The notes below the pieces were generated by a model. It did no database searches, had not been told where the DNA came from, and saw only the letters and a program-made list of their open reading frames with translations. A stretch of 34,772 nucleotides of DNA from Candidatus Niyogibacteria bacterium CG10_big_fil_rev_8_21_14_0_10_46_36 (GTDB lineage: Bacteria > Patescibacteriota > Minisyncoccia > 1-14-0-10-42-19): positions 1 to 34,772 of the forward strand of contig PFCO01000006.1 of the NCBI GenBank assembly GCA_002772995.1, given 5' to 3'. A program made the position numbers and the translations under genes. Shown in pieces: positions 28,326 to 33,170 of the stretch (position 1 is its first letter; each line of letters begins with the position of its first letter).

Positions 28326-30896
28326 TTACCTTGTCTCGTAGAGCTTCGTGGTGTCGAACGGAGTCTTTTGTTTTTCTCCGGTGCTTCCCATTGCGCTTCC
28401 GAAAGACCGGTAGTTTTTCCCGGTAGAGGAGAATTGAGGAGTGGCAACGCCATAGGTTTTCGTCAGGGCGCGTATAATCTTTAGCGCGATGTCCTTTGTC
28501 GCAAATGCAACCCGGTCGCGTTCGCTGTCCTGTATTCCCCAGAAGACCATGCCGCTCGTTGCGTCAGCCATCTTGCTGATACTGCTCGGAGCTTTAAGAT
28601 CCGCTATGCGCCCATTCTTGTACACGATGTATTCTTGCCCCTTTATCCCGAATGGGTCAAAGATGAATACCGGCGTGATAACAATTGACTGTTTAACGCA
28701 TGCTGTAAGAAGTTCATCCAGTTTTCCGTGACGGATGGTTTCTATGCCGTCAGTTATCGGCACAAGAAATGTGAGCATTTCTCCATAACGGCTGATGCGT
28801 TCTTTGATGCGCAGCAATACCGTTTCTAGCATGAACTCGATATCTGTTGCGCCCTTGCAGTCAGTAGAACTGATCATCTTCTCTATCTTTGAGATATCGG
28901 GAGAAAGGAATTTCATTTGCTCTGCAAAAGCAATTTCTTGCTCAGCTGAGAAATATTTCTGTTCACTGAAATCAATGTGAGCGTAGGAGAAATCCCTCCC
29001 TACTCCTTCTCTGCATATTGCAAGAGCGGTCTGCGAGCCCCAGCGAGCAAGGTTGCCCTTGGTCGCAAGCGTTCCTTTCCCTACTACCTCGCCTGCCATG
29101 GAGTACGAGCGGTCTTTTGCGGTAATGATGCAGATTTCAGGAACCGTGCGCACCTTCACCAGCGGTTTTGGCGCTCCCGAGTCAATAAACTCGGGGATTC
29201 GTGAAGGCTCCGCTTTGCGGATTTCTTCAAGATTTTTTATCGGCTTTCTGTAAGATATTTCTCCCCGGCGATGATGTGTCTTTTTTTTCTGGACTTGAAA
29301 ATCATCCTTAAGGCGGTCTATCTCTTCAAGGAAGAGCATGACACTCTCGGCGGTCTCAAAGTTTTTTATGCCTTGGATATCGATGTCCGTTTCCGGGCCT
29401 GCTTCTTCTGACTGCGATGTGGAAAGCTCAACCGTAGGTTCCTGCTGGTCAAGGAAAAAGTCATTGAGCGATATTTTTTTATCTGGTGCTCCTTTTTCGC
29501 GTCTCCCTTCGGACTTTTTGTCTTCCGGCGTGAGGCGCTCTTCTCCCTTTTTTTCTTTTTTTCTCGGGGGTTCCTGGTTTTTGAGATTGTCTGCGGGCGG
29601 AGGAGTTTTTTGTTCCTGTTTGGGTGGGGGATTGTTCTCAAAGCTTCCTTCAAACGGCTTTTCGGATGTCGCTTCGCGCAGCTCTTCGTGCGAGTGTATC
29701 CGCGAGAGCTTGTCTTTCGCGGTCACAAAAAGAGATTTTATCTCCGCAAAGAACGCTTCCGCCTTCGCTTCGATCTCCGCAATGCGCATTTCAAATTCCT
29801 TTTGCTGGTCATCATGGCCGATGCCATGGTCCACCGTTTCTTTTAGCTTGTCCAGCTCATCGAGCAATTCTGCTGTTTCTTTTGTGTACGCATGATGTTT
29901 CAGCGTATCTATAAAGAGGTCGACCACATGGTTTATCTGCTTTCGCTGGTCTTTTGTTTCTACTCGGTGAGTGATGTACCCGTACATGAAAAGAAAATCA
30001 TCCCACGCTATCTCAGTCCGGCCTTCAAAGAGGGCGTGCGCACGCAAGAGCTTATGGAGCTTTACAATCGCCGCACGGTCAGTTAACACCGCATCTTCCT
30101 CGTGGAATCCCTGGGTCTCGATAACGATGTCGAGGAGAGAGACAAGCGCCCAGGTCATAACAAGCGGAACCCGGATCTTCGGGCTGCTCCCGCCTATATA
30201 TTCGTATGCCTTGTCCAGATCCTCCTTGCTTACTTTTGCTTTTGGAGCTGCGTCCAGAAGGTTTTCCGGCCAAGTACGCGACCGTCTCATTGCTTCACGG
30301 AGGTTTTTAAACCTCTTTTTGAATATGAGGTTTCTGCAAAACACGCCAAGCGAGAATCTGTCGATAACCTGTTCTTCAAGCAGTTTGGATGATCTGCTTT
30401 TCGGATTTGCGGCAGCAATGAGCTGGCGCATGGAAGAGGGGGTCCATTCCTCTTTCTTGGTTGACGGATTGAAATATTCGTATCTTCCTTCGTTTAAAAT
30501 AGGAAGAAGAACATTCATAATCTCGTCGGGTGCGCGCGTAATCTCATCAAAGAAACCCGTATCACACCGGAGAAAACAGCCTGGCTCAAAACTCTCAAAT
30601 ATCTTCTCTTCTTCTTTTCCGTGGCCGAGGTCGGTTTTTTCGCGGACAAGAACGGCGGGTCCTATGATTTGATTTATGGTCATCTCATTTGTTCCCTGTA
30701 CATGGTGAAGGCGCAAGCTTGTTGCATGCGCTATCAGTTCGCTTGATAGTGTTTTAGCAGTTCCTGTCGGTCCGATGATAAGCATGCTTTCCTTGGCAAG
30801 AAAACTTATCGGGAGGAATTTTTTCAATCCCTCCTGTCCTTCGATAAATTTATCCAGAGCATCATAAAGAAATTTTCCTATCTCTGTTACTTTCAT
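28326..30896 (-). CDS. MoxR-type AAA+ ATPase fused to a VWA domain
   Basis: An 856-residue single chain. The N-terminal part is a MoxR/RavA-like AAA+ ATPase: Walker A GPTGTAKT (42-49), Walker B FFDEIT (115-120), sensor segment LIAAANPKSRS and VIDRFSLGVF with the arginine finger. A charged linker rich in Lys, Glu and Pro (about 420-500) follows. The C-terminal 270 residues are a VWA domain with an intact MIDAS metal site: DRSYS (595-599), Thr in GATDIE, Asp in ITDG. MoxR and VWA proteins usually occur as neighbouring genes (RavA-ViaA, CobS-CobT) that act as metal-insertion or chaperone machines; here both are in one polypeptide. GGGAGG sets the start; a structured leader precedes it. Confidence 0.9.
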   Translation of the reverse strand: MKVTEIGKFLYDALDKFIEGQEGLKKFLPISFLAKESMLIIGPTGTAKTLSSELIAHATSLRLHHVQGTNEMTINQIIGPAVLVREKTDLGHGKEEEKIFESFEPGCFLRCDTGFFDEITRAPDEIMNVLLPILNEGRYEYFNPSTKKEEWTPSSMRQLIAAANPKSRSSKLLEEQVIDRFSLGVFCRNLIFKKRFKNLREAMRRSRTWPENLLDAAPKAKVSKEDLDKAYEYIGGSSPKIRVPLVMTWALVSLLDIVIETQGFHEEDAVLTDRAAIVKLHKLLRAHALFEGRTEIAWDDFLFMYGYITHRVETKDQRKQINHVVDLFIDTLKHHAYTKETAELLDELDKLKETVDHGIGHDDQQKEFEMRIAEIEAKAEAFFAEIKSLFVTAKDKLSRIHSHEELREATSEKPFEGSFENNPPPKQEQKTPPPADNLKNQEPPRKKEKKGEERLTPEDKKSEGRREKGAPDKKISLNDFFLDQQEPTVELSTSQSEEAGPETDIDIQGIKNFETAESVMLFLEEIDRLKDDFQVQKKKTHHRRGEISYRKPIKNLEEIRKAEPSRIPEFIDSGAPKPLVKVRTVPEICIITAKDRSYSMAGEVVGKGTLATKGNLARWGSQTALAICREGVGRDFSYAHIDFSEQKYFSAEQEIAFAEQMKFLSPDISKIEKMISSTDCKGATDIEFMLETVLLRIKERISRYGEMLTFLVPITDGIETIRHGKLDELLTACVKQSIVITPVFIFDPFGIKGQEYIVYKNGRIADLKAPSSISKMADATSGMVFWGIQDSERDRVAFATKDIALKIIRALTKTYGVATPQFSSTGKNYRSFGSAMGSTGEKQKTPFDTTKLYETR

Positions 30897-30904
30897 GATG
30901 TCCT

Positions 30905-31096
30905 CCCTGTATCCGTGTTGGTTGTATTTTTAATGTTCAGTACTTGCCTTTTACAGAAAAAGGCAAGTTGGGTACCGATCCGATTCTTCCAGAGGAGGGG
31001 AGTGCATACACTTCTCCCGTCCTACGTAGGGATAGAATGGGTCAGGTAGTGCCTAACTTGCCCTTTCCTTTCTGATAGGTATTGCCTATGTAATTT
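30905..31096 (-). ncRNA. structured 5' leader RNA of the MoxR-VWA gene
   Basis: The predicted transcript starts near 31096 and runs about 200 nt to the ATG. On the minus strand GGCAAGTT (31055-31062) can close a roughly 100-nt domain with AACTTGCC (30962-30969). The same AACTTGCC can instead form an 11-bp hairpin with the following AAAAGGCAAGT (30942-30952 on the plus strand): the two folds exclude each other, as in riboswitches and attenuators. Inner hairpins include TTAGG/CCTGA, AGTG/CACT and the palindrome CCTACGTAGG. A CCTCC inside the domain could pair with the GGAGG ribosome binding site. No known riboswitch class recognised. Confidence 0.6.
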
Positions 31097-31102
31097 GGCT
31101 TT

Positions 31103-31130
31103 ATTGTACTAAATCTCAATAGATTGTCAA
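31103..31130 (-). promoter_or_regulatory. promoter of the MoxR-VWA leader
   Basis: Minus-strand TTGACA (31125-31130), 16-nt spacer, TACAAT (31103-31108). Confidence 0.85.
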
Positions 31131-31184
31131 TCCCGCTAAAAATCGCGTTTGCCATAGGATTAGTCACTAGGGGGGTATTTGTAT

Positions 31185-31294
31185 AAAAAAAAAGAGGGGC
31201 GTAACCGCTTTGTAAGCGTTGCCCCTCATTGATTTGTAGCGTCCCCCGGACGCTTTTGTGATTACTGCACCGTCTTACAGACGCGTGCCTCAAG
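31185..31294 (-). ncRNA. candidate small RNA, about 110 nt
   Basis: A complete small transcription unit with no plausible ORF. The promoter (31300-31328) predicts a start near 31294. Three stems follow on the minus strand: GCAC-CGTCT/AGACG-GTGC, AGCGTCC/GGACGCT with a GGG loop, and a terminator GAGGGGC/GCCCCTC followed by nine T's (31185-31193). Single-stranded stretches are A-rich (AATCACAAAA, ACAAATCAATG). It does not resemble tRNA, 5S, 6S, SRP or tmRNA that I can see. Function unknown; it lies between the 16S gene and the MoxR-VWA leader. Confidence 0.65.
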
Positions 31295-31299
31295 TCTCA

Positions 31300-31328
31300 A
31301 ATATAACAAACATGTAAGCATGTGTCAA
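31300..31328 (-). promoter_or_regulatory. promoter of the candidate small RNA
   Basis: Minus-strand TTGACA (31323-31328), 17-nt spacer, TATATT (31300-31305). Confidence 0.88.

Positions 31329-31612: not shown

Positions 31613-33170
<1,558 letters not shown>

Follow-up and report, generated by a model that had tools for sequence, protein, structure and literature searches.

The window, by which we mean the whole 34,772-nt stretch of contig PFCO01000006.1 analyzed here, carries on its minus strand a gene for a MoxR-type AAA ATPase (28326..30896), whose product matches the Pfam families AAA_5 and bpMoxR and shows weak similarity to RavA. The original prediction had described this gene as MoxR-VWA; the MoxR part agrees with the domain search, whereas no VWA domain was matched in Pfam, although the product has a C-terminal MIDAS-like motif (DRSYS). 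A consensus scan located a sigma70-type promoter (TTGACA-N16-TACAAT, 11/12 consensus positions) at 31103..31130 on the same strand, with transcription expected to start near 31096. The promoter and gene start thus delimit a leader (~31096-30897, minus strand), as had been proposed, with a Shine-Dalgarno sequence (AGGGAGG) at 30902..30908 (minus strand). Its domain at 30935-31075 was predicted to fold more stably than dinucleotide shuffles (z = -3.45).

Two further features of the window lie upstream of this leader. At 31178-31328 (minus strand), another promoter (TTGACA-N17-TATATT) precedes three stem-loops and then a strong terminator ending in U9 (fold z = -4.6). Neither a tRNA nor an Rfam match was found in this unit, which has the appearance of a small RNA gene situated between the 16S rRNA gene and the leader. 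A similar promoter-stems-terminator unit, diverged in sequence, occupies the equivalent place in genome G002 (L041 6050-6190). The 16S rRNA gene itself (31613-33170, minus strand) runs directly into a terminator (31480-31451), and no tRNA or 23S gene follows it in the window; the rRNA genes are therefore unlinked.

Within the leader, the minus-strand segment AACUUGCC (30969-30962) is perfectly complementary to GGCAAGUU (31062-31055), and ACUUGCCUUUU and AAAAGGCAAGU can form an 11-bp hairpin at 30942-30968 (minus strand); both alternative pairings predicted for 30962-30969 are therefore present in the sequence. The long-range pairing forms a terminator-like stem with a 9-bp perfect core, with its 5' arm AAGGGCAAGUU at 31055..31065 and its 3' arm with U-run AACUUGCCUUUUU at 30957..30969 (both minus strand), ahead of UUUUU and 65 nt before the ATG. 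The original prediction had offered an attenuator as one option, and transcription attenuation is what the U-run behind this stem suggests. The 11-bp hairpin, which would sequester the terminator 3' arm, was seen in near relatives only, as judged by eye rather than by a statistical count. The long-range stem has a widely conserved competitor in another hairpin, absent from the original prediction, which we call PA (GUUAGG-CACUA-CCUGAC, 31041..31057, minus strand) and whose pairing is kept while its sequence is free; when the window leader was folded through the U-run, 0/6 of its pairs were kept.

A further claim concerned a CCTCC that might mask the ribosome binding site. As RNA, this CCUCC could in principle pair with GGAGG, and alternative folds could then cover or expose the ribosome binding site. 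However, the CCTCC of the window is not conserved (L003 reads CCCUACUUUG at that place) and is paired inside a rod in the window fold, while some 50 nt separate the U-run from the Shine-Dalgarno sequence downstream, which falls outside the conserved pairings; translational control thus appears very unlikely.

BLASTN searches with the window leader revealed a second copy in its own genome, before a LonB-like protease gene, and further copies in two congeners, of which one lies before the MoxR-VWA orthologue and two lie before an unknown gene, which in G002 is followed by a proteasome-beta-like gene (L019 2845-3702, minus strand; TIGR03634, E = 4.8e-11, below the NCBIfam cut-off). The five nearest leaders share AGAAAGGAAAGGGCARGUUAG...CUAUCCCU and similar folds, and the four nearest relatives gave fold z-scores of -5.5 to -6.7. 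A MAFFT-based model (R1) added four more genomes, with 7 genomes matched in the class and the window's own genome only in the phylum draw; as a family search model it was too specific, and it was replaced by a sequence-only core model (R2), which detected 43 sites at E <= 1.2e-4 among 384 Paceibacteria class genomes. In a phylum-wide draw of 362 genomes, R2 found one site outside the class (L105, G430 C14:1522), in a genome of 1.7 Mb. When 84,980 species genomes were scanned with a DNA pattern, the matches included Patescibacteria showing the full anatomy as well as recognizable chance matches: those in Proteobacteria, archaea and other groups lacked PA, terminator and promoter. The 8 pattern matches in IMG/VR, none with flanking anatomy, were likewise attributed to chance, and two weak core-model matches (G213_C77 and G258_C15) were discarded because the 3' box was missing.

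The 51 sites analyzed comprise the R2 sites, four taken from the pattern scan and others that scored less well but had the complete anatomy; they span at least 17 Paceibacteria families. All genomes are MAGs, and the shuffle statistics reported below ignore relatedness. Members usually lie within 40 nt downstream of a promoter, with a -10-like hexamer 6-39 nt upstream of the motif. Because the search used the boxes described below, their conservation is in part built in; the R-Y pairing, PA, the competing terminator and the gene set are independent of the search criteria. Judged from these sequence comparisons, the window leader is a member of an apparently undescribed RNA leader family found in many ultrasmall Paceibacteria (Patescibacteria).

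The family anatomy consists of a 5' box (GAAAGRAAAGGGCA), the PA hairpin of free sequence and a 3' box (YCUAUYCCUA), and the consensus reads in order RGAAAGRAAAGGGCA, hairpin PA, a short spacer and usually CGACUCUAUYCCUA. In the window, the 5' box AGAAAGGAAAGGGCA (31059..31073, minus strand), which is near-invariant over the 51 sites in alignments A2 and A3, pairs with the 3' box CAUUCUAUCCCUA (31027..31039, minus strand) through G31068-C31030, R31067-Y31031, A31066-U31032, A31064-U31034, G31063-C31035 and G31062-U31036. The R-Y pair between the boxes was G:C in 27 leaders, A:U in 24 and mismatched in none of the 51. Given that R2 carries no pairing information and that 15/16 of its training sequences were G/C, pairing played no part in the selection of the A/U leaders. 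Moreover, both states occurred inside six single families (f1, f4, f27, f36, f66 and f42) and inside the single genomes G257 and G073, indicating that this change happened repeatedly, and the neighboring pair showed one compensatory change, from A:U to G:C, in G265. The box covariation score was 0.187, compared with 0.093 +/- 0.013 after shuffling (0/500 shuffles reached 0.187), and full box pairing was abolished when the partner was slid by any offset. The covariation covers these two pairs only, the other box pairs being invariant and thus neither supported nor contradicted. Folded alone, the core kept the box helix in 35/51 leaders; the alternative registers chosen by RNAfold in 16 sequences conflict with the R-Y covariation and were rejected. 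A leader peptide was also rejected, as no conserved start codon was seen by eye after the Shine-Dalgarno-like 5' box.

PA begins 0-2 nt after GGGCA and ranges from 3 to about 30 bp, with sequence and length both free. It reached at least 4 bp in 46/51 leaders, compared with 22.4 +/- 2.9 when arms were swapped between leaders, and the mean helix length was 4.88 bp against 3.51 +/- 0.13 in the swaps. PA thus covaries far beyond the arm-swap controls, and the compensatory changes that the original prediction had proposed to look for in homologous leaders were found. These data also bear on an RNA thermometer, in which heat alone, with no binder, would melt one fold and favor the other. The weak core helix (-8 to -12 kcal/mol) and the stress-type gene set described below would suit such a device, but thermometers conserve stability and not sequence, whereas here the two boxes hardly vary over at least 17 families; we consider a thermometer improbable.

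In almost every leader, the region from the 3' box to the start codon contains a stem followed by U5-8. The combined score of stem and U-run averaged 14.2 compared with 8.5 +/- 0.4 for shuffled sequences (51 leaders), and a strict scan predicted an intrinsic terminator stem with a U-run between promoter and start codon in 47/51. The 5' arm of the stem was located upstream of or within the 3' box in 47/51 leaders; among the 47 strictly scored cases, it overlapped PA in 32 and the 5' box in 7, used the 5' end of the transcript in 4 and lay downstream in 4. In the window this arm overlaps both the 5' box and PA, so that the long-range stem excludes the box helix and the hairpin alike. Different families exclude the core via different partners, a pattern that chance similarity would not yield. 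In predicted folds of whole leaders, 1/51 kept the box helix and 11/51 kept PA, compared with 10.1 +/- 2.6 and 35.9 +/- 2.5 of 51 when only the downstream part was shuffled. The U-run stem was weak or interrupted in a few leaders (G159, G257b, G216 and G149_C89), about eight leaders built it from the 5' end or downstream sequence and not from PA, and the loops of the long-range stems are large (about 40-150 nt). Together, the PA arm swaps, the box covariation and the whole-leader folds indicate a conserved hairpin that is mutually exclusive with a terminator. The mutually exclusive pairing noted originally in the window is therefore real and not due to chance, because the competition is conserved in distant leaders of differing sequence, and the proposal of a structured two-state regulatory leader gains support at the sequence level.

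We then considered the genes behind the leaders. Pfam searches assigned 13 downstream genes to Trypsin_2 (HtrA-like; two below the curated cut-off), 3 to S41 with PDZ, 1 to LonB and 1 to the Lon substrate-binding domain (below the cut-off); 4 encode PrkA (one, in G023, by sequence similarity only), 3 MoxR, 2 the MoxR-VWA type, 1 an FtsH/PAN-like AAA protein and 1 a VWA protein. No recognized domain was found in about 20/49 downstream genes, and most products outside the assignments listed above have signal-peptide-like N-termini by eye. As far as raw domain counts can tell, the genes point to a shared theme of protein quality control, both in the envelope and in the cytoplasm, and so to a possible proteostasis regulon. 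The original prediction had guessed at a metal or nucleotide signal on account of MoxR-VWA, but leaders of this family also stand before genes for HtrA-like and S41 proteases, Lon/LonB, PrkA, MoxR and many signal-peptide proteins; the element is thus not tied to MoxR-VWA, and the guess loses its footing. One Lon-type gene behind the leader (L063, G003 C42, minus strand) seems to use two frames near its start, where the ATG frame led by the Shine-Dalgarno sequence differs from the main Lon frame, possibly reflecting a frameshift or an assembly error.

In many leaders (e.g., L101, L078 and L023), a boxA-like element (YUCUUUGAMAA) was observed 20-50 nt before the ATG, between the terminator and the Shine-Dalgarno sequence. 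It occurred in 29/47 leaders compared with 1.3 expected by shuffling, and at a higher cut in 23/47 compared with 2/80 other genes; the pattern was chosen after the sequences had been viewed, and coincides with the published consensus of the Nus boxA (GYTCTTTAANA, e.g., in the suhB leader; PMC5725501). Nus factors could therefore be involved, but boxA differs from the conserved core in being a separate linear element, and the window leader has no good match (8/11). This frequent element, and the position of the boxes just after the promoter, would also fit an explanation in which the boxes are a DNA operator or a polymerase-bound RNA element (put/EAR-like processive antitermination) and the stems that follow are ordinary ones. 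The widely varying box spacing, with PA of 3 to about 30 bp, the covariation of PA and the specific competition of the terminator with the core all speak against it, and we hold it to be unlikely.

Taken together, we regard it as likely that the leader acts in cis as a transcription attenuator whose antiterminator is embedded in the terminator, and in this model it very probably decides whether transcription continues into protein-quality-control genes. The first ~50 nt would fold into the irregular box helix (GRA.AGG with CUCU.A.UYC) topped by PA, forming the antiterminator. As RNA polymerase advances, the 3' segment and a run of U would emerge, and this segment may then pair with the 5' box, a PA arm or the 5' end of the transcript, generating an intrinsic terminator and destroying the antiterminator. 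The terminator fold, being more stable, would be the default, whereas a signal binding the conserved boxes would hold the antiterminator so that transcription could reach the gene. The computed part of this model comprises the family, the box helix and PA (by covariation), the terminator-like stem with its overlap, and the gene set; we infer that termination occurs and that binding switches expression on. Since the genes served are proteases and AAA+ quality-control machines, stress on proteins or on the envelope is probably what the signal reports.

That an irregular hairpin of otherwise simple build is so strictly conserved favors a specific binder, and the chances that this binder is a protein are about even, a protein being slightly likelier than a metabolite given a gene set without metabolic genes. 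A small-molecule or ion riboswitch, in which the boxes would form an aptamer lying within its own terminator, as is the case for HMP-PP (thiS), is a less probable but tenable alternative. The near-invariant boxes flanking a freely varying hairpin, a terminator-embedded layout as in PMC6478431, and the absence of CAT_RBD antiterminator proteins from all 20 motif-bearing genomes searched (0/20; control positive in 4/14 genomes) are consistent with it, but the core is only a simple irregular hairpin, and the proteases and AAA machines offer no transporter or biosynthesis theme hinting at a ligand. Returning to the attenuator model, its broadest form posits a new class of antiterminator RNA with a dedicated binder as a main stress-response switch of Paceibacteria, coordinating secreted HtrA/S41 proteases, Lon, a proteasome-like operon, PrkA and MoxR/VWA; we find this evenly poised between true and false.

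The leader family is likely new. The window leader had no match in Rfam 15 at the gathering threshold, and relaxing the limit to E = 5 gave none on its minus strand; the best of the low-score matches, to mir-92, lies on the opposite strand and is an artefact of composition. A search of the open-access journal literature found nothing on this leader RNA. Regulation of the cell cycle and differentiation in Patescibacteria was described as almost unknown in a 2024 review (PMC11665869), and the leader offers an entry point to gene regulation in this group, with a regulon and a structural model that includes a specific covarying pair. It may also provide a native, short and portable control element for Patescibacteria, which are without inducible expression systems. 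ANTAR-bound RNAs have two hairpins with conserved loops, whereas the leader has one hairpin with a free loop sequence; no ANTAR protein was detected in the 20 motif-bearing genomes (0/20), with the control genomes also silent. Both, however, would act by antitermination via mutually exclusive hairpins (PMC3369936). The RAT elements of BglG/SacY/LicT similarly have an irregular antiterminator hairpin overlapping a terminator arm (general logic in PMC3369936), but the upper stem of the leader is far longer and variable, its genes are not sugar genes, and, as CAT_RBD is absent from the 20 bearers, its binder is not of the BglG/LicT type. The HMP-PP (thiS motif) riboswitch, a conserved element embedded in and exclusive with an intrinsic terminator (PMC6478431), has a different conserved sequence, and the leader has no thiamin genes and no Rfam match, the genes behind it encoding proteases and AAA proteins. 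The extended hairpin and terminator-embedded architecture of the riboswitch (PMC6478431) nevertheless make its layout the most like that of the leader, which, if our model is true, would give a second case in nature of an antiterminator that lies within its own terminator.
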